DNA from: a virus
Reading direction: 5' to 3' (one strand)
DNA length: 42,678 bases
IMG/VR virus record: IMGVR_UViG_3300010339_000004
Coordinates: 1-42,678 of that record
The translations under genes and the position numbers were made by a program. Shown here piece by piece: positions 25,718-40,812 of this stretch. Position 1 is the first letter of the stretch. Every line of letters starts with the position of its first letter. The notes under the pieces are model-generated. The model saw nothing but the letters and a program-made list of their open reading frames with translations. It made no database searches and was not told where the DNA came from.

Positions 25718-25833
25718 AAAACACCGAGTTCCGCGGACGCGCTACAGCCGTGGATTGCAGCCCACCGTGACGTTTTAAAATAGCACCGTAACTATCACTC
25801 GTTATATGTTTTAGAGGGTATACAATAAATACA

Positions 25834-25891
25834 TAATTTACATAATTTTATAGTAATTTACATAATTTTATAGTAATTTACATAATTTTAT
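25834..25891. repeat. Tandem 20-bp AT-rich repeats (iteron-like)
   Basis: The unit CATAATTTTATAGTAATTTA occurs twice exactly (25841-25860, 25861-25880), with an 11-base partial third copy after it and a 7-base partial copy before. About 20-bp spacing puts sites roughly two helical turns apart, as in replication iterons. Confidence 0.85.
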
Positions 25892-25914
25892 GATAATATC
25901 TCCGGCGGTGTCAA
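25885..25914 (-). promoter_or_regulatory. Candidate minus-strand promoter toward the late operon
   Basis: Read on the minus strand: TTGACA (25914-25909), 18-base spacer, TAAAAT (25890-25885). The -35 is perfect and the -10 matches 5 of 6. It points to terS about 470 bases away and would transcribe through the tandem repeats. The -10 lies in a very AT-rich tract, where such matches arise easily. Confidence 0.4.
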
Positions 25915-25974
25915 ACCGGCGTTACGGTGCTATTTTAAAATGTTTTGAGTTATAGCTAAAAGAGGTATCTAAAA

Positions 25975-28237: not shown

Positions 28238-28456
28238 TTATCGTGTTGGACGGAATCGTGTTGGACGGAATCGTGTTGGACGGATCGGTTGATAGACCGT
28301 TTTCAGTTCAAGATAGTTTACTAACGCTCTTATAACTTCTTTTTCTAACACAATCCTGTTAGATGGATCGGTCGGTAAACCGTTTTCAGTTGTTAAGATA
28401 AGTTGCATGTCTATAATTTCTGCGTACACATTATCACCTAAATAAGTTTTTTTCAT
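28238..28456 (-). CDS. Conserved small phage protein with slipped-repeat C-terminal tail
   Basis: 72 residues. The core KKTYLGDNVYAEIIDMQLIL then TTENG...NRIVLEKEVIRALVNYLE matches a widespread small phage family (T-Y-L-G-D-x-V-Y ... L-TTENG ... I-x-LE-x-EV-x-x-AL). The C-terminal 21 residues are unusual: a segment whose DNA duplicates the TTENGLPTDPSN-coding stretch in another frame, then three FRPTR-type copies made by a 15-bp tandem repeat. Function unknown. Confidence 0.7.
   Translation of the reverse strand: MKKTYLGDNVYAEIIDMQLILTTENGLPTDPSNRIVLEKEVIRALVNYLELKTVYQPIRPTRFRPTRFRPTR
28241..28284. repeat. 15-bp in-frame tandem repeat
   Basis: The unit TCGTGTTGGACGGAA is present 2.9 times. 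In the gene it encodes repeated FRPTR at the extreme C-terminus; being a multiple of three it can expand without a frameshift. Confidence 0.9.
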
Positions 28457-29519: not shown

Positions 29520-29548
29520 ATGATAGCCTCTACTAACATTAATGTCAA
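29520..29548 (-). promoter_or_regulatory. Strong early promoter of the small-gene cluster
   Basis: Minus strand: TTGACA (29548-29543), exactly 17 bases, TATCAT (29525-29520). Perfect -35, 5/6 -10, ideal spacing, 35 bases before the first gene. A 16-bp dyad (29533-29548) covers the -35. Confidence 0.8.
29533..29548. promoter_or_regulatory. Operator-like dyad, copy 1
   Basis: CTAACA-TTAA-TGTCAA on the plus strand. It overlaps the -35 of the small-gene promoter and matches the pattern YTRACA-N4-TGTYAA shared with two other early promoters (35143 and 37239). Confidence 0.55.
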
Positions 29549-29563
29549 TAACAAATTACATAA

Positions 29564-31873
29564 TTATTTCGTTTGATCTATTGTATAATTTTTGGTCACT
29601 TCCACGGGATTATCTATCCGTACCGCCGGGCTCTCTTTATGAATATAAAGAGTCGGTCGTCCGTTATCCGGCAGTATGGGTATCGCAACGCGACCGCTCG
29701 GTAAAGCCGGATGCCAGTCATAACCTAAATTTTGTAGTAATTCTCTGCGTTTGCTACGCGGTATTTTGCGAGACGCATTGAGACGATCTAATAGTCGATC
29801 TAAAAATAAACTAGATATCCAACCGTTTTTAAAACCTTGTAATTGTTGTTCTATCGCCTCCTGAATTTCTTGTTCCACTCCCCCCAATCCTTGCTCTATT
29901 GCATCATGCGTAGTACTAGTGACCGGAGCGGGTTGCTTATGCGCGGGATTAAATTGATCAAGAATTTTATAAGTATGAAGGTACTCATTTACAATTGCAT
30001 ACCCGTCTCTTTGTTCTAACCAGTGATATAAATTCATAAAATAATCTTGTGTTAAACCGTCTCTTATTAAATCCTCTTTGGATTGTTGTGCCGTAAAAAA
30101 CGGGGCGAAACGTCGGTCATTACGAGTTTTACGTAAACCGTTTTTATGATTAGTATTTAATATAAAGTTACCGCATACGCGGCGCATCTCCTGCGGGGAA
30201 TACATTGCACGTATAGCAATATATTCCCCCGTGATCATCGGTTTTAATGTTTCTAACACTTCGATTTGTAAATCGGGATCCACATAAATATCTTCCACAC
30301 CGATAAATATTTTACCATACAACCAGTCATTGTATTTTTCTGTGATTTCTTTTGCATTTGGCAAGTGGGTATACCGACGTCCTACCGCATATGCCACGCA
30401 ACGACTAAAAAGAGTTTTGCCATTGCCATCCACGCCTTGAATTAAGGGTGCCCATTGAAATTTAATCCCGGGATGTTGAACGCACGCCGCTAAGTAACTG
30501 AGTAAAATTAATTGATCGTTTGCATCTGGTAATACTAACGATAAATGACGAGTAAATAATGTAATATCGCCCGCGACTCGACGAGTAGAAATAGGCCACC
30601 ACAAATTAACCAGTACGCGTTCGTCTTCTTTTATTAATTCCGCCGGTGACAAGTCTGGCCTAAAACAAGAAGTCTGAGCTTGTGGAAATTGTATCACTTG
30701 AGATTCCGTAAAAACTTCCCACGCATTACGTGTTACTCGTTGATTTAACGCATCCATCACAAAACTATATCCACCGTATGTTGCCCTAAATTGATCGGGT
30801 TTTAGTAATTCCCCGCCGGGTATTAAAATCCGATGAGCATCTCTCACATACACACACCCCTTAAATATTTCTTTTTGTTGATCCAGGGAGGGAAAAGAAT
30901 TGCGAATTGGGGCATCCTCGGCGACCATAGATTTATCTTGTAACCAACGGGTTTGCATCCCGCATGCTTTGATAATAGTATGACTTTTTAAATAATCTTC
31001 ACGTTGCCATTTCTCACGTACTAATTTTGATTGTAACATTAAGATTAAGATACGCTCACAATTATTGCCCGTCCAGTACGCTAAATGTTGCGCGAGTGCC
31101 ATATCCGCGCTACTCTCATCATAAGCTCGATCTCGATATTTATCGGGATAAGCACGAGACAGTGCTGGTATATCGCATTCCCACAACTCTTTAAAAGACG
31201 CTTTATTACCAAAAATTGCATTGGCGGAATGCGACGCAAGCATACGCTTAAGTAGAGTTTCGTCATCCGTTGGTCCATGCCATTGCACACAAGGCCCGGT
31301 TGTCCATTGGATATCAGAGATAGTATTTTTAACAGGGAAATATTGAGCCGTGAGCCACACTAGAGCCGGATCGTGTACAGTATCCACATTACCTATTGCT
31401 GACGTACCCGTAAGCGCCACAAACCGTTGTTGTGTATAAAATTCTATATTTGCATAAGTAGAAGATTTGCAAGCATGCTCAAGCGCATGACCACGACCGA
31501 TGATATGTAAACCTTTTCCGGATGAAGATATTTCGATCGAGGCTCCGGGAAAATGAGAGGCAATCTCAAGAGATAGTGCAGACCAAGAGTTATCCTGCGA
31601 TAAACAATCATCAATATCAATAAAAAAATAGGGATCATCTTTAGTAAAAACAAATCCCACGCCGTACCCTACACCAAGTATGTGATTATAAGTAATCGCT
31701 TCCTCTGCGGTCATCCATGACTCCGGAGACAAATGATTTATTTTATATCTACGTATCGGATCGATAGGTATTTTATCTGTTTTACCGGGACGTGAGTCGC
31801 TGGGTAGCAATTGATAAATTATAAATTGCGGAAATTTACTTAAACCCTCCAAGGCAATCGGTAAAAAATCCAT
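29564..31873 (-). CDS. Primase-polymerase / SF3 helicase fusion
   Basis: 769 residues. N-terminal PrimPol (AEP) domain with acidic pair PYFFIDIDD (D86, D88) and SSGKGLH (117-123, catalytic His). C-terminal D5/SF3-type helicase with Walker A GVDGNGKT (480-487), Walker B KIFIGVEDIY (521-530) and sensor ILNTNH (571-576) followed by NDRR arginines. It would prime and unwind phage DNA. The last ~130 residues (EQGLGGVEQEIQEAIEQQLQ, then SRKIPRSKRRELLQNLGYDW) may be a winged-helix end domain. It is last in the operon begun by the SF2 helicase. Confidence 0.9.
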   Translation of the reverse strand: MDFLPIALEGLSKFPQFIIYQLLPSDSRPGKTDKIPIDPIRRYKINHLSPESWMTAEEAITYNHILGVGYGVGFVFTKDDPYFFIDIDDCLSQDNSWSALSLEIASHFPGASIEISSSGKGLHIIGRGHALEHACKSSTYANIEFYTQQRFVALTGTSAIGNVDTVHDPALVWLTAQYFPVKNTISDIQWTTGPCVQWHGPTDDETLLKRMLASHSANAIFGNKASFKELWECDIPALSRAYPDKYRDRAYDESSADMALAQHLAYWTGNNCERILILMLQSKLVREKWQREDYLKSHTIIKACGMQTRWLQDKSMVAEDAPIRNSFPSLDQQKEIFKGCVYVRDAHRILIPGGELLKPDQFRATYGGYSFVMDALNQRVTRNAWEVFTESQVIQFPQAQTSCFRPDLSPAELIKEDERVLVNLWWPISTRRVAGDITLFTRHLSLVLPDANDQLILLSYLAACVQHPGIKFQWAPLIQGVDGNGKTLFSRCVAYAVGRRYTHLPNAKEITEKYNDWLYGKIFIGVEDIYVDPDLQIEVLETLKPMITGEYIAIRAMYSPQEMRRVCGNFILNTNHKNGLRKTRNDRRFAPFFTAQQSKEDLIRDGLTQDYFMNLYHWLEQRDGYAIVNEYLHTYKILDQFNPAHKQPAPVTSTTHDAIEQGLGGVEQEIQEAIEQQLQGFKNGWISSLFLDRLLDRLNASRKIPRSKRRELLQNLGYDWHPALPSGRVAIPILPDNGRPTLYIHKESPAVRIDNPVEVTKNYTIDQTK

Positions 31874-31887
31874 ATGGTCGTCTCTTT

Positions 31888-32193
31888 TTATTTAGCTAAG
31901 TACTCCATCACTTTAGCACGTAGGGGTTTAGGTATTTTCGATAGCTCAGGATTACTGAGTAATTGAGCGAGTAACGGTAGTATTTTATTTTCCACTGCAT
32001 AATCTACCACGGCTTGTCGTAATTTTTTTATACTTTTAAAATAGTATAAAATTAAAGAATAGCTACACCCAGCGGCATGAGCTATTTTAACTAATGTAAT
32101 TTTATAGTAACCTTCTTTTAATGCAAAGACTATCGCAGTTTCTAAAATTTGACGTCTACTTTCTTTCGCCGGTAAACGTTGATACTTATTCAT
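31888..32193 (-). CDS. TetR-type short transcription regulator
   Basis: 101 residues. Residues ~12-65 (RRQILETAIVFALKEGYYKI, LVKIAHAAGCSYSLILYYFKS) are the TetR N-terminal helix-turn-helix, with the usual YYF-x-S-K/I helix 4 start. The family normally has ~200 residues with a ligand-binding domain; only ~35 follow here, so it is a short form. It overlaps the nuclease gene by 8 bases. It is a candidate to bind the 16-bp dyads at the early promoters; TetR proteins bind such palindromes as dimers. Confidence 0.78.
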   Translation of the reverse strand: MNKYQRLPAKESRRQILETAIVFALKEGYYKITLVKIAHAAGCSYSLILYYFKSIKKLRQAVVDYAVENKILPLLAQLLSNPELSKIPKPLRAKVMEYLAK

Positions 32194-32665
32194 CCACTAC
32201 ACCTCGGGTAAATTTAGCATCGCCGCCTAAACTAGTAATCAATGTTATCCAGGCTAATTGTGCTTTTTCTCTTTCCGTATCTCGATATTTCCAATTTGAG
32301 GTTTTTACTTCCCGGGACATAAATATCCCTACGGTTTTTCCAACCATATCCAATGTGACAGTTACAGGATTGATCCCAATTAAGTCAGAGGACTTTAAAT
32401 TTTGATTAACATGAGCGGAGTCATTGGCCAAGCCATACCGTAAAAAACGATTATCTTTGGTATAGGTTGCACCTACGTTATTACGCCACAATCGGCCTCC
32501 GCGTTGTGAGGCAAGTAATCTTACTTCTTGCAAAATTTTTGCTTCTGAAATCGACTCTGGAATAGGAGATTCAGTTTTTATATCTAGGTTAAACATCTCT
32601 CGCAGTTCACTTACCGCGGTGTGTGGAATTCCCCAACGAGACATCCATTCATAAAGTTCTTTCAT
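32186..32665 (-). CDS. VRR-NUC domain nuclease
   Basis: 159 residues. VRR-NUC signature: EAKILQEVRLLASQRGGRLW, RNNVGA, SSDLIGINPV (D94) and REVKTSNW (E119, K121), with AQLAWI after it (Q136). This PD-(D/E)XK-type fold cuts branched DNA or processes ends in phage replication. It stands between helicase and primase genes, consistent with replication or recombination. Confidence 0.88.
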   Translation of the reverse strand: MKELYEWMSRWGIPHTAVSELREMFNLDIKTESPIPESISEAKILQEVRLLASQRGGRLWRNNVGATYTKDNRFLRYGLANDSAHVNQNLKSSDLIGINPVTVTLDMVGKTVGIFMSREVKTSNWKYRDTEREKAQLAWITLITSLGGDAKFTRGVVDE

Positions 32666-32865
32666 ACAATTTGTTCCTGCAATGCTGCAATAAGAGCAGC
32701 TTTGGAGATGTATAACTCACTTCCATTAAACCAGTCTCTGACTTTACCTCCTGTAAATATTTTATAAGCAATAGGGTCTCCTCCCCCTTTGCTTAATATA
32801 GTTCCCTTATAAATCTTAGAAAACGTACAAAAAAATACAATATCACCAATTTTAAATTTATCCAT
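32662..32865 (-). CDS. Small barrel-like protein of unknown function
   Basis: 67 residues. Start at ATG 32865 because GGGAG lies eight bases upstream; the ATG five codons earlier overlaps that site. MDKFKIGDIVFFCTF then GTILSKGGGDPIAYKIFTGG suggest a small SH3-like beta barrel. It overlaps the membrane-protein gene by 8 bases. No family assigned. Confidence 0.6.
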   Translation of the reverse strand: MDKFKIGDIVFFCTFSKIYKGTILSKGGGDPIAYKIFTGGKVRDWFNGSELYISKAALIAALQEQIV

Positions 32866-33148
32866 AGCGTTTACTCCCATTTCGGTAGTTTAGGTTTGAA
32901 AAGGTAAGAGTATTTAAATATTCAATAGCGTGTTCTTTACGATCAAAAACCCGAGGGGTATTGGAAATTCTCAAAATACTTAAGACAATGATAATCAATA
33001 AAAACATTTGTAAAATATAAGAGTTACCAAGATATCTATAGTTAATATAATACGTACCTATTATAAAACCAAAAAAAATAAATATTTTTGATAATAAAAA
33101 TATTAAACAATTTTTTACAACAACAATTTCACATGTTACGCATTTCAT
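32858..33148 (-). CDS. Small membrane protein, two helices
   Basis: 96 residues with hydrophobic stretches at ~10-33 and ~41-60 and a basic, Tyr/Asn-rich C-terminal tail (RKEHAIEYLNTLTFSNLNYR). CVTC near the N-terminus. GGAG lies nine bases upstream. It is the third in a row of tiny membrane proteins inside the replication operon. Function unknown. Confidence 0.65.
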   Translation of the reverse strand: MKCVTCEIVVVKNCLIFLLSKIFIFFGFIIGTYYINYRYLGNSYILQMFLLIIIVLSILRISNTPRVFDRKEHAIEYLNTLTFSNLNYRNGSKRYG

Positions 33149-33325
33149 TTAATTAACTCCGTGTCCTAAAATTAAAATGGATACCATGATGCATGCTATA
33201 GAAACTGAAGTCAAATACCAAAAAGCTATTTGTATTAATACTTTATTATTTCTAATTAAGCTCTGACGCAGTAAAACTAAAACAATCGTATCCGTGATTA
33301 TCATTACTATTAAAAAAATTAACAT
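33149..33325 (-). CDS. Tiny membrane protein (58 residues)
   Basis: ATG 33325 with GGAG before it. Hydrophobic helix 1 is MLIFLIVMIITDTIVLVLL; a short basic link RQSLIRNNK leads to helix 2 (WYLTSVSIACIMVSILIL). Stop abuts the next ATG directly. Two-helix hairpin topology. Confidence 0.6.
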   Translation of the reverse strand: MLIFLIVMIITDTIVLVLLRQSLIRNNKVLIQIAFWYLTSVSIACIMVSILILGHGVN

Positions 33326-33336
33326 AGGTTTACTCC

Positions 33337-33495
33337 TTAATTTAAAACGTAAGAAATTATAATCAGTAAGCCAAGAATCGTTGTTACTAAACTAATAGTA
33401 ACACCTATACTACAGGGTATTACATAGAACATCGTTAAAAAAAGATTAATTGTTCCCATCATACAGATCGCAATTGCTATTGGAACTCTAATCAT
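33337..33495 (-). CDS. Tiny membrane protein (52 residues)
   Basis: ATG 33495 overlaps the helicase stop as ATGA and follows GGGGGG. Two hydrophobic stretches, roughly 4-28 and 31-50, separated by a CSIG turn. No charged residue after Arg3 apart from the termini. Same style as the next two genes; function unknown. Confidence 0.55.
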   Translation of the reverse strand: MIRVPIAIAICMMGTINLFLTMFYVIPCSIGVTISLVTTILGLLIIISYVLN

Positions 33496-35123
33496 ATTTC
33501 TACCCCCCATCGTATCAATTGCTGGTTTATCTTTTCTTCTAATTCGTGCGCTTCTCGTCGCCCTATTGTTTGAGCCGTGGCAATATCCACACCAAAAGTA
33601 AAATTAAATATTTTATAAATAATTGAATCATTTTGTCCATGATCTCTATGAAACCCTGCCCACAATGAGATAGCGCGTCTTAATTTTTCTTGCTGTTGTT
33701 GTTTTTCTAAATGTCGATTATAAATTGCCTTTTGTATAATAGGTGTTGCATTTTGCGGTATCCTCGGTGAACCATCTATCCGTGCTATCTCTCCCCGTAA
33801 TCGAGCCAGGGCGTCACCTGATAATTCCGTTAAATCGCCGTCTACCTGCTCCGGTGCCGACCTCGTGGCTGGCGGCGTATAATACCCGCAATACGGACAA
33901 ACTTTATGAATTCTTTCATACATCGCAAAACAGTTTTTTCCCAAACAAGTACGCAAAGGGATGATGTCGGTCGATTGACTACGCGATCGTTTGTCTCGGT
34001 TATCCAATGACCAAACTCGTTCTCGATCCGGTAATCGATGCCGCATTACATTGCCCACGTGGTCAATAATAATAGCGCGATCTTTACCGTCTAGAGGTCG
34101 CAATGCGCGGCCAAATTGCTGTGCATATAAACCGTACGACTGAGTAGGTCTAGCCATGGTAATAACTTCTATCGCCGGGACATCGACGCCTTCTCCCAAT
34201 AAATCAACATTAACGAGCTGCAATATTTCTCGGCGTCTAAATCGTTTCATAATTTGATGTCGCAAAATATCGGGAGTTTTACTACTAATAACTTCAGCCG
34301 GTACGCCAAGCCCTCTGAATTCTGCGGCGATCCCTGTGGCGGCCTCAATGTCTACTGCAAAAGTGATACCCAATTTGCCTTCCGCATGTCGTAAATAATG
34401 AGTTACCACATCGCCGGTAATATGCGATTTATGTACCGCCGTCCGTAATTTTGGAGGACTAAAATCTCCGCCAGCAGAAATTGGTACCTCAGATAAATCG
34501 ACATCACTCTCATGATTAAAAATTATATAATCACATAAATAACCGTTCTCAATTAATTGCCGCATAGACGGTCCAACAATCAGATCGTCCATAATACCAT
34601 CCGCTAATCGCCCTAACCCCCGACCATCGGCACGCACCGGCGTGGCTGTTAGGTAAATCCCTTTAGCGTTAGGAAATAATGCCGCAGCTTTACCCCACTT
34701 GTTATCTCGTAGTACATGATGACTTTCATCTTGTACGACTAATGATACTTTTTTAAACCAAGTCTCTTGCCTTTTTATCAAAGTATCTACTCCTGCGACG
34801 GCGCAACGGGCATGCGGATCAAAATAGCATTTGCCAGTCTCGCTTAAGTGTAAAGCCACGATTGCCCGCACAGTGGCGGCTTGCGCTATAATCTTATGTT
34901 TTACCCCACGCTGTGCGAGAGTAAGGGATATTTGACTCACTAACTCATTGCGATGCGCGATAGCGATTGACATTCCTTCATGATCGGCTAAAATTTTGGT
35001 GAACAAAACGGTTTTACCAGACCCCGTGTGTAATTGGACTAATATATTTTTTGATCCCTTTTGCCAAGACGAATAGATAGCCTGCTCTGCCGTACGTTGA
35101 TAGTCTCTTAATAGTAATGTCAT
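33492..35123 (-). CDS. SF2 DEAD/DEAH-box helicase
   Basis: 543 residues. Q-region LRDYQRTAEQ, motif I HTGSGKT (32-38), motif II DESHH (132-136), motif III LTATP (158-162), then QQFGRALRP (motif VI). A zinc ribbon follows (CLGKNCF...CPYCGY) and a helical C-terminus. Similar SF2 helicases are common in phage replication operons and resemble XPB/Ssl2-type unwinding enzymes. First gene of its operon, promoter at 35157-35185. Confidence 0.93.
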   Translation of the reverse strand: MTLLLRDYQRTAEQAIYSSWQKGSKNILVQLHTGSGKTVLFTKILADHEGMSIAIAHRNELVSQISLTLAQRGVKHKIIAQAATVRAIVALHLSETGKCYFDPHARCAVAGVDTLIKRQETWFKKVSLVVQDESHHVLRDNKWGKAAALFPNAKGIYLTATPVRADGRGLGRLADGIMDDLIVGPSMRQLIENGYLCDYIIFNHESDVDLSEVPISAGGDFSPPKLRTAVHKSHITGDVVTHYLRHAEGKLGITFAVDIEAATGIAAEFRGLGVPAEVISSKTPDILRHQIMKRFRRREILQLVNVDLLGEGVDVPAIEVITMARPTQSYGLYAQQFGRALRPLDGKDRAIIIDHVGNVMRHRLPDRERVWSLDNRDKRSRSQSTDIIPLRTCLGKNCFAMYERIHKVCPYCGYYTPPATRSAPEQVDGDLTELSGDALARLRGEIARIDGSPRIPQNATPIIQKAIYNRHLEKQQQQEKLRRAISLWAGFHRDHGQNDSIIYKIFNFTFGVDIATAQTIGRREAHELEEKINQQLIRWGVEI

Positions 35124-35133
35124 TTTTTTATGC

Positions 35134-35161
35134 TTGACTTAATTAACAGTAATGTTAATAT
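35134..35161 (+). promoter_or_regulatory. Rightward early promoter
   Basis: TTGACT (35134-35139), 16-base spacer, TAATAT (35156-35161), upstream of the plus-strand replication operon at 35206. Its -10 coincides with that of a leftward promoter. Confidence 0.65.
35143..35158. promoter_or_regulatory. Operator-like dyad, copy 2
   Basis: TTAACA-GTAA-TGTTAA, extended one base pair each side (35142, 35159). It lies over the spacer of the rightward promoter and the -10 of the leftward one. Confidence 0.6.
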
Positions 35162-35185
35162 ACGCAGCTCATTTGATGTTGTCAA
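35157..35185 (-). promoter_or_regulatory. Leftward early promoter for the helicase operon
   Basis: Minus strand: TTGACA (35185-35180), 17-base spacer, TATATT (35162-35157). Perfect -35 and a 5/6 -10. It faces the rightward promoter with overlapping -10 boxes. Confidence 0.75.
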
Positions 35186-35205
35186 CTACGAAGGAGTAAA
35201 AAATT

Positions 35206-35388
35206 ATGAAAGTATACGCAGTTATGATAGACAGTCATGAAATACTGACGGACTGTTTTTTAGATAAAGAAGAAGCCGAAGAATGTGCTAAATCATTTGG
35301 TGAGAATACCCCCGGTACCACTCGGATTATAGAATTAAATTGTAAGGATTTGCCCGAAATGTCAACTCTAACATGTGGCTATGAATAA
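35206..35388 (+). CDS. Small orphan protein, first gene of rightward operon
   Basis: 60 residues, MKVYAVMIDSHEILTDCFLD then KEEAEECAKSFGE; a beta-beta-alpha unit like other short phage proteins. AAGGAG before the ATG. Unknown function; promoter-proximal so likely well expressed. Confidence 0.65.
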   Translation: MKVYAVMIDSHEILTDCFLDKEEAEECAKSFGENTPGTTRIIELNCKDLPEMSTLTCGYE

Positions 35389-35432
35389 AATCACCGTCTA
35401 TTAATTTCAGATTCAATATAAGGAGTAAAAAA

Positions 35433-36128
35433 ATGATATCAATAACGATTGATAATTTAGGTGAAGAAGATGCGTATGTATTACGTAAAGTAGCTATGTT
35501 TTTAGAAGACATGGCTATTTGGAGGAAAGAACCAAAGGATATGCCGCCGGATAACGCAGCCCGCGATCAAACTTGTGAAAATTACGCCATAACCGAGGAA
35601 AACGCAAATGAAGTAGAAGATATAGACTCTGAATTAGATACACAAAAACAAGAGGATGAACTTGATCAAACCGGTTTACCGTGGGATGAACGTATACATT
35701 CTAGCTCACGAACAAAAACAGCAGATGGCCAATGGCGACAACGTCGCGGCGTTGCCCCGCACTTAGTTAAACACGTATTATCTGAGCATGATCAATCTAA
35801 AAAAGTTCCTTTACCGCCGACTATTCCCATTGTGGTTTCTAAAGTTAAACTTAAGATTCCCCTACCACCGGCTATACCATTGATACAAGAATCTTATATT
35901 GATCCTGAATCTTTGAATCCTAAAACAAATAGTCTTCAACAACCGTTTATAGATATAACTAATAGAGTTAAAGACCTGATAAAAGAGGGAAAATTAGATC
36001 GTAAAGTTTTCCAAAAATTAGTACTAAAAGCCGGTCTACCCTCTCTTGCTTCTGGACGAGATCATCCTGAGTTAGTAGAAGTTTTATCGGATTTAGTGGA
36101 TGAGGAAATATTAATGGGAGCGGGTTGA
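35433..36128 (+). CDS. Conserved phage protein with LPWDxRIHSSS motif
   Basis: 231 residues. The motif LPWDERIHSSSRTKTADGQW followed by RQRRGV (about residues 82-107) is a recurring phage signature in proteins encoded near recombination and replication genes; its biochemical role is not known to me. A proline-rich linker follows (VPLPPTIPIVV, KIPLPPAIPLI) and a helical C-terminal domain (LIKEGKLDRKVFQKLVLKAG) that may oligomerise. AAGGAG ribosome site. It precedes the nuclease gene by one base. Confidence 0.72.
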   Translation: MISITIDNLGEEDAYVLRKVAMFLEDMAIWRKEPKDMPPDNAARDQTCENYAITEENANEVEDIDSELDTQKQEDELDQTGLPWDERIHSSSRTKTADGQWRQRRGVAPHLVKHVLSEHDQSKKVPLPPTIPIVVSKVKLKIPLPPAIPLIQESYIDPESLNPKTNSLQQPFIDITNRVKDLIKEGKLDRKVFQKLVLKAGLPSLASGRDHPELVEVLSDLVDEEILMGAG

Positions 36129-36129
36129 T

Positions 36130-37242
36130 ATGAATTTAGATCCATCTTCTGCGGCGCGGCGTGTTAATTGTTCTGGCTCTTTTTTATTAGAACAACAATT
36201 ACCCCCACAAGAAAAATCCCCTTCGGCTATCGAGGGGGATTTAGCGCACGAATTTGCTAAAGAAATACTATTACAAAATCTTGATAGAGATAGCGTACCC
36301 CCAACGCTTGGAAGAGTCACGACACCACCGGATTTATCAGACGATCTTTTACAGGCAATTGATATTTACGTGGCAGATGTATTAAATATTACACAATTAG
36401 CCAAACAAAAACCTACTATAGAAACAAAAATCCATATCTCCGATATACATAATAAATGTTATGGAACCCCTGACTGTTGGTTACGATGGAAAGAAACTAT
36501 ATATTTATGGGAGTTTAAATCCGGACACTCCCCCGTAGAAGTTTTTGAAAATTGGCAAATGATAGAGTATGCGTCCGGTATATTATCTCTTTTACAAAAA
36601 CGAGGAGAAGACGAACCGATGACTTTTATTTTTCGTTTAGTACAACCGCGATGCTATTTAAAAAAAACTCCAATTACTGAGTGGCGGATATTAACACGGG
36701 AATTAGATGAGTATTTTAATGCGCTGTGCATATCCGAAAATCTAGCCTTACAACCGCACATGCCTTGTACTACCAATACCGAATGTGTTTTTTGTCCCGC
36801 TCGACATGTATGTTCGGCACTACATTCCTCGGCATTAACTTTAATTGATGCTCAAATGGAAAATATTAATAGTGATTTGAATGACGAAAAATTAGGTTAT
36901 GAACTAAGAAATTTACATTATGCGGAAAAGCTTTTAAAAGCTAGAATAACGGCACTTGAAGAACAAGCTATTTTTAAAATTAAAAAAGGTCAACGTATAC
37001 CGCCGTATGTTTTAGAGTCAGCCACACCTCGTGAAAAATGGAATGGCAAAACGGAAGATATAGAATTAATAGGAGAAATGTTAGGAATAAATTTATTAAA
37101 ACCCAAGGAACTTGTTACCCCAAAACAAGCCATTAAAGCAGGAATGAACGCGGAACTGGTAAGAAGTTACACTGAACTACAACAAGGACCATTAAAATTA
37201 ATTCAACACAACGAGAAAAAAGTCAGGAAAATATTTAGTTGA
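36130..37242 (+). CDS. RecB/Cas4-like nuclease (DUF2800)
   Basis: 370 residues. PD-(D/E)XK core: GDLAHEFA (H40), YGTPDCW (D115), WEFKSG (E128, K130), NWQMIEYA (Q143, Y147). Iron-sulfur cysteines: C14 near the N-terminus and CVFCPARHVC (C219, C222, C228), as in Cas4 and AddB. DUF2800 proteins sit beside an ssDNA-binding protein in many phages and likely process ends for recombination. The gene is followed by a promoter whose -35 overlaps its stop. Confidence 0.88.
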   Translation: MNLDPSSAARRVNCSGSFLLEQQLPPQEKSPSAIEGDLAHEFAKEILLQNLDRDSVPPTLGRVTTPPDLSDDLLQAIDIYVADVLNITQLAKQKPTIETKIHISDIHNKCYGTPDCWLRWKETIYLWEFKSGHSPVEVFENWQMIEYASGILSLLQKRGEDEPMTFIFRLVQPRCYLKKTPITEWRILTRELDEYFNALCISENLALQPHMPCTTNTECVFCPARHVCSALHSSALTLIDAQMENINSDLNDEKLGYELRNLHYAEKLLKARITALEEQAIFKIKKGQRIPPYVLESATPREKWNGKTEDIELIGEMLGINLLKPKELVTPKQAIKAGMNAELVRSYTELQQGPLKLIQHNEKKVRKIFS

Positions 37243-37254
37243 CACTGTTGTCAA
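37239..37254. promoter_or_regulatory. Operator-like dyad, copy 3
   Basis: TTGACA-CTGT-TGTCAA covers the -35 and the start of the spacer. Same arm pattern and spacing as the dyads at 29533 and 35143. Confidence 0.55.
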
Positions 37255-37267
37255 TATTATTTAATAT
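37239..37267 (+). promoter_or_regulatory. Internal rightward promoter
   Basis: TTGACA (37239-37244), 17-base spacer, TAATAT (37262-37267). Near-consensus, 30 bases before the next ATG. The -35 includes the stop codon of the nuclease gene. Confidence 0.75.
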
Positions 37268-37296: not shown

Positions 37297-37653
37297 ATGC
37301 CCATTCCAATTGTAATGAATGAACCCCAAGCCATAGTATTAGATACTTCAGGAATAGTTTTTGTATTAACAAAAATTCCTCAAGATATTTTCTCTCCAAA
37401 ACTACTAGTAAGCTACCTTTTAGATGCTCAAATGCAGGAAGAGCAAATAGGAAAAACTTTTATTAATAATCCACATAGGACAATTTTACTATCTCATGTA
37501 TTTGTTTTATGCGGCGAATATGTCGACCAATTAGATAATGAAGAAGATATTAAAAAGTATTGTATAACACCAGGTATTATAGAGAAAATAGAGATAGCTA
37601 TGCTTAATTATAATTTAGAAATAGTTTTTACTCAAGGAGACGTAAATGACTGA
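37297..37653 (+). CDS. Orphan protein upstream of ssDNA-binding gene
   Basis: 118 residues, MPIPIVMNEPQAIVLDTSGI at the start; mixed alpha/beta with acidic DQLDNEEDIKKY. AAGGAG before ATG. It overlaps the next gene by 8 bases. Not recognised. Confidence 0.65.
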   Translation: MPIPIVMNEPQAIVLDTSGIVFVLTKIPQDIFSPKLLVSYLLDAQMQEEQIGKTFINNPHRTILLSHVFVLCGEYVDQLDNEEDIKKYCITPGIIEKIEIAMLNYNLEIVFTQGDVND

Positions 37654-38509
37654 ACAGTATGAATTTTTAACGCCGGTCGGTGGACGGCTGGTAGCAGGAT
37701 CGCTATACCAACCACAGACCACAAATGTGGACGGAAAATCTTTAATTGATAAAAAAGGTCAAGCATATGTTAAATATTTTATAGCCGTGGCTATTCAAAA
37801 AGGTAACGAAAAACATTGGTCAGAAACAGAATGGGGATCTAAAATATGGCAAGCCGGTCATGCGCTAAATCCAACTTCAGCACGCTCACCCGTGTTTGCA
37901 TGGAAAGTAGTGGATGGAGATAGTACCGTACCTAATCAAAAAGGTATTACTCCCGCGGAACGAGAAGCGTATCCGGGTAATTGGGTTTTATCTTTTAGTA
38001 ATGGTTTTCCTACCAATATTTATAATTTCTCTGACGGCACTCAACGAATAGTAACGGAGGAAAATTTTGTTAATCGCGGCGATTATATCCAAGTTTTTGC
38101 AAACATACGTGACAACGGTTCCCCGCGCAATCCAGGGTTATTTTTAAATCAATCCATGATTGCTTTTAACGCTTACGGCGAACGATTATCTTATATGCCG
38201 GATGTTGAAGACGTTGGTTTTGGCCAAGGTCAATTGCCACCTGGCGCAAGTCTAACTCCACTGTCGGGTATGACAACTCCGGCGGCACCGACATCTGCTG
38301 TTTCTGCACCGCCGCCGGTTATGCCAAAACCAATTGTTGTTACTCCGCATACTGCAATACTTATTCCCCCGGCGGCACCCACTCCACCTATGCCTATCGT
38401 TTCCGCCAGTCCTCGCATGTCTACCAAAGCGCAAGGTAGCAGTTACGAACAACTTATTTCTGTGGGTTGGACAGACGAATTATTAAAACAACATGGAATG
38501 TTTGCATGA
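37646..38509 (+). CDS. Putative ssDNA-binding protein
   Basis: 287 residues. Opens EFLTPVGGRLVAGSLYQPQT, then YVKYFIAVAIQKGNEKHWSE and FAWKVVDGDSTVPNQKG, GNWVLSFSNGF, a beta-rich OB-like core; this is a family seen next to DUF2800 nucleases and polymerases and taken as the phage ssDNA-binding protein. A long Pro/Ala-rich linker (215-265) leads to a C-terminal SYEQLISVGWTDELLKQHG motif, likely the contact with partner proteins. ATGA overlap with the polymerase gene. Confidence 0.8.
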   Translation: MTEQYEFLTPVGGRLVAGSLYQPQTTNVDGKSLIDKKGQAYVKYFIAVAIQKGNEKHWSETEWGSKIWQAGHALNPTSARSPVFAWKVVDGDSTVPNQKGITPAEREAYPGNWVLSFSNGFPTNIYNFSDGTQRIVTEENFVNRGDYIQVFANIRDNGSPRNPGLFLNQSMIAFNAYGERLSYMPDVEDVGFGQGQLPPGASLTPLSGMTTPAAPTSAVSAPPPVMPKPIVVTPHTAILIPPAAPTPPMPIVSASPRMSTKAQGSSYEQLISVGWTDELLKQHGMFA

Positions 38510-40812
38510 ATATTCCGTTGCCGCCACAGTTAGATACTCTATCTGCCGGTACCCAATTAAAAGCAGGACATGGGATAGCTACGATCCTTGCTGATTTTGA
38601 TTTTGAAACTTACAGTCCGGCGGGTTACGTGTGGAAATCGCATAGCCAAACGTGGGGCTGTTTACTCAACACTAAAATCAAAGGATTATCTGTGGTCGGT
38701 GCAGCGGTATATACCCAACACCCGGATGCTGAAGTTTTATCCTTGGCCTATAATCTTAAAGATGGTAGAGGTAAACGACAGTGGATACCCGGTCAACCTC
38801 ATCCACAAGATTTATTTGATCATATTGCCAGAGGAGAATTGTTAGAAGCTTGGAATGTGTCGTTTGAATACTGGGTTTGGGTTAATATATGCCAGCCTAA
38901 GTATGGCTGGCCGAGGCTATCCTCTAATAATTTACGTTGCGCCATGGCTAAAGCGCGGGCTTTTTCATTACCCGGAGGGTTAGATAAAGCCGCCGAAGTA
39001 TTAGGTACAAAAAATAGAAAAAATCCGGAAGGTAAACGATTACTCGATAAATTTAGTAAACCACGTAACCCTACTAAAACAGATGACAGAGTACGAATAC
39101 TACCAAACTTAAATGATCCCGACACTAGAAAACTCTACGAATATAATATCCAAGACATCACCGTTGAAGCTGAGTGTTCAAGTTTGATTCCCGATCTAAG
39201 AGATTTTGAATTAAAATTTTGGCAATGCGATCAAATTATAAATCGCAGAGGCGTACAAATAGATACTGAATCAATTAAAAATTGTATCATTATTTTAGAA
39301 CAGATAACCGAAAAATATAACGAAGAATTGTGTAGTTTAACAAATGGTGCAGTAACAAGTGCCTCTCAAGTACCTGCACTAAAAACTTGGTTATATCATC
39401 AACATGATTTATTAGTTGATGGTCTTGATGAAGATAAGCTTCAACGATTGCTAAATAGACCCAACTTACACAAAGATGTTCGACGAGTTTTACAAATACG
39501 ACAACTCTTAGGTTCTGCGGCAGTTAAAAAATTATATACGATGTTAAATCAGGCAACTTCAAAAGGCCGATTACATGATTTATTTATCTATCATTCGGCT
39601 CGTACGGGTCGTACGGCAGGTGCTGGACCTCAACCACAAAATTTACCTAACAGTGGTCCCGCGGTTTTAGGGTGTAATCATAAAAAAGAAGATGCTGCGG
39701 ATTATAATTTTTGCGGTAAATACTCAATTAACAAAGACAATATCTGCGCGTGGTGTGGAAAATTATTAAAGTCTTATCATTGGGGTGAATGGAATGCCAC
39801 TGCTGTTAAAGATGCTCTAGAAACTATGGCCTCTGGAGCTTCGGGATGTATTGAATACTACTGGGATGAAGATATATTAAATATTGTAGCGGGTTGTTTA
39901 CGCGGATTATTTATTGCCGCACCTCATCATATATTAATTGGCTCTGATTATAGTGCAATTGAGGCGGTTGTATTAGCCGCACTAGCCGGTGAAGAATGGC
40001 GGTTAGACGTTTTTCGTACTCATGGAAAAATTTATGAAATGTCGGCGTCTAAAATTACAGGCATACCTTTTGAAGAATTTGAAGAATATAAAAATCGCAC
40101 TGGTCAACATCATCCTATGCGGAAAAAAATAGGTAAGGTAGCTGAACTTGCCAGTGGTTACCAAGGCTGGATTGGTGCATGGAAACAATTCGGAGCCGAT
40201 GAATTTTTCAATGATGACGAAATTAAACATTCTATTTTGCAGTGGCGTTTCGCTAGTCCCAAAATTGTTGAAATGTGGGGTGGACAATCTAAAAATTGGA
40301 AAACTGAGTACTATGGACTAGAAGGATGCGCGATTTCCGCATTACTATTCCCTGATGTGGAATTCGAATATAGAGGAATAAAATGTATTGTTAATCAAGG
40401 AATTTTATATATACGATTATTATCGGGTAGATACTTGACGTATCATAAAGCCAAATTAGAGATGAGTCAACGACGCGCTAACGAATATGCTATAACTTTT
40501 GAGGGATGGAATACCAACCCTAAAAATGGCGGCATAGGTTGGATACGAATGAATACGTATGGCGGTAGGCTTACGGAGAACATTGTACAGGCTACGGCGC
40601 GAGATGTTTTAGCAAACGCTATTATTAATTTAGAAAAATATAATTACCCAGTAGTCTTACAAGTACACGATGAAATCATCGCAGAAATACCAATAAATTT
40701 CGGTAGTGTTAAACAATTTGAAACGATAATGTCCACAATGCCCGTTTGGGCAAAAGATTGGCCGATTAAAGCTTCGGGCGGTTGGTTGGACAATAGATAC
40801 AGAAAGGACTAA
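38506..40812 (+). CDS. Family A DNA polymerase with 3'-5' exonuclease and zinc insertion
   Basis: 768 residues from ATG 38506 (MNIPLPPQLD). Exonuclease: DFDFE (D32, E34), WNVSFE (N117), YNIQD (D217). Polymerase: SARTGRTAGAGPQPQNLP (364-381), motif A GSDYSAIE (D481), motif B RKKIGKVAELASGYQG (539-554), motif C QVHDE (H721-D722-E723). A likely zinc module, GCNH...C...CAWC (390-417), interrupts the fingers region. There is no 5'-3' exonuclease domain. It replicates phage DNA with the PrimPol/helicase. Confidence 0.95.
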   Translation: MNIPLPPQLDTLSAGTQLKAGHGIATILADFDFETYSPAGYVWKSHSQTWGCLLNTKIKGLSVVGAAVYTQHPDAEVLSLAYNLKDGRGKRQWIPGQPHPQDLFDHIARGELLEAWNVSFEYWVWVNICQPKYGWPRLSSNNLRCAMAKARAFSLPGGLDKAAEVLGTKNRKNPEGKRLLDKFSKPRNPTKTDDRVRILPNLNDPDTRKLYEYNIQDITVEAECSSLIPDLRDFELKFWQCDQIINRRGVQIDTESIKNCIIILEQITEKYNEELCSLTNGAVTSASQVPALKTWLYHQHDLLVDGLDEDKLQRLLNRPNLHKDVRRVLQIRQLLGSAAVKKLYTMLNQATSKGRLHDLFIYHSARTGRTAGAGPQPQNLPNSGPAVLGCNHKKEDAADYNFCGKYSINKDNICAWCGKLLKSYHWGEWNATAVKDALETMASGASGCIEYYWDEDILNIVAGCLRGLFIAAPHHILIGSDYSAIEAVVLAALAGEEWRLDVFRTHGKIYEMSASKITGIPFEEFEEYKNRTGQHHPMRKKIGKVAELASGYQGWIGAWKQFGADEFFNDDEIKHSILQWRFASPKIVEMWGGQSKNWKTEYYGLEGCAISALLFPDVEFEYRGIKCIVNQGILYIRLLSGRYLTYHKAKLEMSQRRANEYAITFEGWNTNPKNGGIGWIRMNTYGGRLTENIVQATARDVLANAIINLEKYNYPVVLQVHDEIIAEIPINFGSVKQFETIMSTMPVWAKDWPIKASGGWLDNRYRKD

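Follow-up and report, generated by a model that had tools for sequence, protein, structure and literature searches.

Three promoters in the replication region of a phage genome share a short inverted repeat, which raises the question of whether they form a regulon and, if so, whether a phage protein or a host protein reads the repeat. The window that we analyzed is the whole of the viral record IMGVR_UViG_3300010339_000004 (positions 1 to 42,678; 42,678 bp). We identified a tail sheath, tape measure, portal, major head protein, and terminase, indicating a contractile-tailed phage. Among the subset of larger ORFs that we scanned in the record, we saw no lysogeny module (integrase), and a relative, PD0307, has been reported to be lytic (PMC10132091).

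The replication genes span 29.5–41 kb. On the minus strand, reading leftward, a DEAD/DEAH helicase gene (33492–35123) heads an operon that includes an endonuclease-like gene (phrog_93; 32186–32665), directly followed by a gene for a 101-amino-acid TetR-like protein (31888–32193), whose 3' end adjoins the gene for an NrS-1-like primase (DUF5906 / NrS1-1_pol-like_HBD; 29564–31873). On the plus strand, the opposing operon has as its first conserved gene one that we call gpX (35433–36128), followed by genes for a DUF2800 exonuclease (phrog_69; 36130–37242), a Gp2.5-like ssDNA-binding/annealing protein (37646–38509), and a DNA polymerase (38467–40812).

Three dyads overlap predicted promoters of the replication genes

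A first-pass annotation of this DNA had proposed that three early promoters share a 16-bp dyad, YTRACA-N4-TGTYAA. All three predicted operators are present, with matching arms and equal spacing. The first, CTAACATTAATGTCAA (29533–29548; the minus strand reads TTGACATTAATGTTAG), lies in the minus-strand promoter of an operon of small genes that follows the primase. The second, TTAACAGTAATGTTAA (35143–35158), lies over and between two overlapping, face-to-face divergent promoters. The third, TTGACACTGTTGTCAA (37239–37254, plus strand), overlaps the 3' end of the exonuclease gene, and its promoter serves the ORF at 37297–37653, the annealing protein, and the DNA polymerase. A scan of the full 42,678 bp found no further exact match. 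The pattern gave 5 strand-matches against 0.03 expected from dinucleotide shuffles of the record, a figure that on its own is post hoc because the pattern was written from three sites already seen. With two mismatches allowed there were 48 matches, compared to 33 ± 7 expected, so that loose matches are near background. The record's own half-sites are mixed (TTAAC, CTAAC, and TTGAC). Given that the pattern had been fitted to its sites, we used related phages as the real test.

Sigma-70-type hexamers with a spacer in the 16–18-nt range were found at all three sites by consensus match. At the 29533 site, the minus strand reads TTGACA-17-TATCAT, with the first arm forming the -35 (29548–29543) and the -10 TATCAT at 29525–29520; at the 37239 site, the plus strand reads TTGACA-17-TAATAT, the first arm again forming the -35 and the -10 TAATAT lying at 37262–37267. 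The second arm falls in the promoter spacer in both cases, and the -35 TTGACA thus accounts for only one arm at these two sites, as had been noted. The accompanying claim that the dyads sit over promoter cores holds for all three, but the middle site is not of the -35/spacer type. Instead, it spans the -10/+1 region of the predicted helicase-operon promoter (35157–35185, minus strand; TTGACA at 35185–35180, a 17-nt spacer, and TATATT at 35162–35157, matching 11/12 consensus positions) and the spacer and -10 of the predicted opposing promoter (35134–35161, plus strand; TTGACT from 35134, a 16-nt spacer, TAATAT at 35156–35161, and an upstream TG). The dyad-bearing promoters would presumably act early. 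A weaker dyad-like match, ATGACATTACTATTAA (35108–35123, minus strand), covers the start codon of the helicase gene at a distance of 35 bp from the middle operator and shares its ATTACT core; it is possibly a second operator.

The dyad is conserved at a single spacing in related phages

We gathered relatives by helicase and primase and counted non-redundant loci; with the annealing protein as the query, no relatives turned up in viral contigs. The relatives show strong conservation of gene order, and in most of them, too, the primase gene directly follows the TetR-like gene. The exact pattern YTRACA-N4-TGTYAA had no matches in the first 20 relatives because the family consensus, revealed by reading the promoters directly, is TTGACG-N4-CGTCAA, of which the record's dyads are an A+T-rich variant. 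The same palindrome occurs at the same promoters in well over 100 related viruses. Across 150 non-redundant loci, WTGAC-N6-GTCAW occurs 246 times, compared to ~12 times for each other spacing. In a held-out set of 33 additional non-redundant loci that we retrieved later, there were 68 occurrences versus ~3 elsewhere, and 66 unrelated control loci (mostly Firmicutes phages or genomes) showed no excess, with 5 versus ~4.

The same spacing stands out in the divergent region between helicase and gpX. In 69 non-redundant copies of this region, TGAC-N6-GTCA occurs 33 times and other short spacings 0–3 times; the sole other peak, at N31–34, is the facing pair of -35 boxes. When we aligned 45 face-to-face promoter pairs on the exonuclease-side -35, the extra arm was T in 42/45, G in 32/45, A in 25/45, and C in 34/45, with its start at the final T of the helicase -10. 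The record's middle dyad, TAAC-N6-GTTA in the helicase orientation, is the same distance from the helicase promoter as in its relatives. Usually one dyad arm is the -35 box, and 66% of dyads have a -10-like hexamer (≥4/6) after the TTGAC arm, compared to 20% of other TTGAC occurrences. The face-to-face overlapping arrangement itself, TTGAC-N31-34-GTCAA, is kept in dozens of relatives (divergent regions of L004–L119). Because these promoters overlap face to face, it is probable that RNA polymerase can occupy only one of the two directions at any moment, even in the absence of a regulator.

Sites recur in five contexts, with an enrichment of 25- to 80-fold relative to other spacings in each: the helicase/exonuclease divergent region (42/88 loci, 1.15 expected), upstream of the annealing gene (40/87, 0.5 expected), upstream of the tetR-like gene (36/127, 0.7 expected), the helicase end (24/120, 0.75 expected), and after the primase (14/114, 0.55 expected). 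The record's three sites represent the divergent-region, upstream-of-annealing, and after-primase contexts. Individual phages differ in number, with 7 strict dyads in Klebsiella phage JD001 and 2 strict matches in Psp6, neither of them at the divergent promoters.

In many relatives, the annealing-gene site lies within the 3' coding end of the exonuclease, at a conserved G[VI]D..VI motif. The Asp codon of the embedded operator is GAC in 29/29 cases, compared to 343/591 gene-wide, and the Val codon is GTC in 22/29, compared to 248/908 gene-wide. From these skewed synonymous codons we conclude that DNA as well as protein is constrained here. Mere protein conservation as the source of the exonuclease-internal matches was thus ruled out by codon usage, and the other contexts stay enriched without these matches.

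These data bear on whether the second arm merely reflects promoter sequence or arose by chance in A+T-rich DNA. In favor of such an origin, most sites have an ordinary -35 as one arm and two-mismatch matches are near background, but it is contradicted by the single peak in the spacing control (246 versus ~12), by the held-out loci, by the lack of excess in unrelated loci, and by the synonymous constraint within a gene. We give it a negligible probability. The second arm is a genuine extra signal, as first proposed, being kept in relatives at the same promoters and at one fixed spacing.

A TetR-type HTH protein is the likely reader of the dyads

A short TetR-type protein had been placed in the operon of the middle site. 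The protein encoded at 31888–32193, in the helicase operon, indeed matches Pfam PF00440 (TetR_N) at 25.7 bits (cut-off 24), and the profile of its TetR-like family matches TetR structures. An AlphaFold model of the 101 residues (pLDDT 91.6) is all-helical, with helices 9–27, 34–41, and 45–52 making up an HTH fold in which residues 45–52 are the recognition helix. The best PDB matches by Foldseek are TetR proteins (E = 8e-3, probability 1.00; TM-score normalized by target ~0.3), and the matches include EilR with its DNA. Four short helices follow the HTH, and the C-terminal ligand-binding/dimerization domain (~130–150 residues) is absent; we therefore refer to a TetR-type HTH protein, not to a full TetR-family regulator. 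Some relatives encode longer TetR-like proteins of ~166 amino acids with an extra N-terminal HTH-like stretch (L020:14490–14999, L024:11377–11877, L026:12311–12811, and L008:4987–5487). Pfam finds two TetR_N stretches in the L020 protein, which could be a single-chain double HTH.

Among primase-bearing non-redundant loci, a strict site is present in 91/123 loci with a tetR-like gene and in 0/9 loci without one (Fisher p = 1.4e-5). Two loci with a site and no tetR-like gene, L230 and L246, were left out of this count because both begin inside the primase gene and cannot show a tetR-like gene. About one quarter of the tetR-bearing loci have no TGAC-class site, and we found none in the tetR-bearing isolates PD0307 (L264), R9Y2 (L267), and PY6 (L268). 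The divergent regions of these three isolates contain other short repeats, such as TTAGC motifs, that may represent a different operator class. Genomes without the TGAC half-site often carry an alternative recurring one, including TTGCC (five times in L004), TGGC (seven times in L236), TGTC (four times in L020), and TTAC (four times in L250).

We then searched seven neighboring proteins (the TetR-like protein, helicase, endonuclease, primase, exonuclease, annealing protein, and gpX) for covariation of their ~1,980 variable columns with half-site class. The top column was residue 3 of the TetR-like recognition helix (Ser46 in the record's protein); those ranked second and third are in the exonuclease, inside the operator-embedding motif. 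Residue 3 is Thr in 4/5 genomes with TGTC and in 1/87 others (p = 9e-6); the Fisher p values overstate independence, because a tree-based independent-pairs test, in which 3/3 informative pairs agreed (p = 0.25; with 4 pairs, p = 0.125), was underpowered. On the primase tree, roughly three gains of Thr coincided with TGTC and one with TTAC, the operator changing every time. In L340, the only Thr genome of the held-out set, a promoter dyad contains a TTGTC half-site. In addition, S[ED]GLVS occurs in the recognition helix of 4/4 genomes with TAAC, from two lineages; one further genome with S[ED]GLVS has TGAC instead.

Could a host regulator read the dyad instead? The -35/-10 promoters of these phages are of the host type, and such sites could also be used by host factors. 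However, the dyad occurs in phages with widely differing hosts (Klebsiella JD001, Edwardsiella MSW-3, and Acinetobacter Scuro), is missing from relatives that lack the tetR-like gene, and varies with the recognition helix of the phage protein, making a host reader quite improbable. The suggestion that the TetR-type protein is involved thus gains independent support from both co-occurrence and recognition-helix covariation, and the 101-residue protein of the helicase operon is the likely reader, as judged from sequence comparison.

A model for control of the replication genes

The data show a real dyad with a single fixed spacing that is tied to promoter positions, is shared by a large family of phages, and tracks both the TetR-like gene and its recognition helix. 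Fixed spacing, promoter-locked positions, and conservation in relatives all support the original idea of a phage regulon. We consider it highly probable that the dyads are operators at which the HTH-only TetR-type regulator (31888–32193) would block the replication-gene promoters; within this model we infer the physical binding, its repressive (not activating) effect, the feedback, and the timing. The regulator would be expressed from the helicase operon and, as a dimer or as two monomers, would bind the 16-bp palindrome, keeping host sigma-70 RNA polymerase off these promoters. Blocking of polymerase fits the way in which the dyads overlap -35, -10, and +1 elements. Both directions could be blocked from the middle operator, which covers the helicase promoter at its -10/+1 region and the opposing one at its -35 or spacer/-10. 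Replication-gene transcription would start on infection and be throttled as the regulator accumulates, with negative feedback expected because the regulator gene sits in an operon that it could itself block. At some sites the protein may act as an activator.

The TetR-like protein might instead bind the dyads mainly for DNA replication, in initiation or primase loading, with promoter overlap being secondary. In most relatives its gene directly precedes that of the primase, and the sites are placed around replication genes. Yet the sites keep fixed positions relative to -35/-10 elements and, rather than clustering like iterons, are spread among as many as five promoters, and PD0307 retains tetR in its helicase operon with the primase elsewhere. 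We regard a primary replication role as unlikely and favor transcriptional repression. More broadly, and with only moderate confidence, we propose that a large, widespread, apparently virulent phage family uses a minimal HTH-only TetR protein as a transcription timer, in which a bridging operator would shut both replication arms and dispersed copies, one of them embedded in coding sequence, would shut the rest, and that repressor and operator specificity changed together several times.

Relation to known systems

Like the TetR/AcrR repressors (TetR-tetO and EilR-eilO), the proposed system pairs a TetR_N HTH with a palindromic operator over promoter elements. Unlike them, the phage proteins are ~101–106 amino acids, lack a normal-size ligand-binding/dimerization domain and an obvious inducer, and would serve a dispersed phage regulon. 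As with lambda Cro/CI, a phage-encoded HTH protein is coupled to operators between divergent promoters, but here the HTH is of the TetR type, a single 16-bp operator lies at overlapping face-to-face promoters with further sites dispersed, and no lysogeny module was recognized among the proteins scanned. Phi29 p4 is a virulent-phage regulator of early and late promoters that are closely spaced and divergent, and it also activates a late promoter. The setting is similar here, with an unrelated protein and operator. The pLS20 switch, as described in PMC4207663, likewise controls overlapping divergent promoters through one switch, but belongs to a Bacillus conjugative plasmid and involves DNA looping, for which we have no evidence here.

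The annotated "TetR family regulator" genes of Jedunavirus JD001, SppYZU01, Scuro, and PD0307 are homologous and lie in the same replication operon; the records and papers that we found assign them no operator or phage role. The homolog in Oceanospirillum phage PD0307 has been described, from its TetR homology, as an auxiliary, antibiotic-resistance-related gene (PMC10132091), one that would help the host survive antibiotics. A 101-residue protein without a ligand-binding domain, a core place in the replication operon in most loci examined, and matching predicted operators on the phage's own promoters all argue against such a role, which we consider very improbable. Gene order and the operators in relatives suggest, rather, that the PD0307-type gene encodes the phage's own regulator, a reading that rests for PD0307 itself on homology and gene order because this phage has no TGAC-class site.

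Our literature search found no promoter or operator study of these phages, and the papers and records found hold no description of how the family controls gene expression. The analysis supplies a predicted regulator, operator code, and regulon for a family to which dozens of Klebsiella, Edwardsiella, Shewanella, and Acinetobacter isolates belong, and predicts a function for a gene annotated only as "TetR regulator" or taken for an auxiliary gene related to antibiotics. The repressor-operator specificity changes also form a natural series that is testable with short DNA probes.

Other repeats in the window

A 23-nt inverted repeat (25770–25792 / 25921–25943, 96% identity) lies in a non-coding gap by the terminase small-subunit gene, with about three perfect 20-bp A+T-rich tandem repeats (25834–25891) between its arms; the 25770–25943 region looks like an iteron array or replication origin. 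Separately, three perfect 15-bp tandem repeats of ATCGTGTTGGACGGA occupy 28240–28284, within a small ORF.
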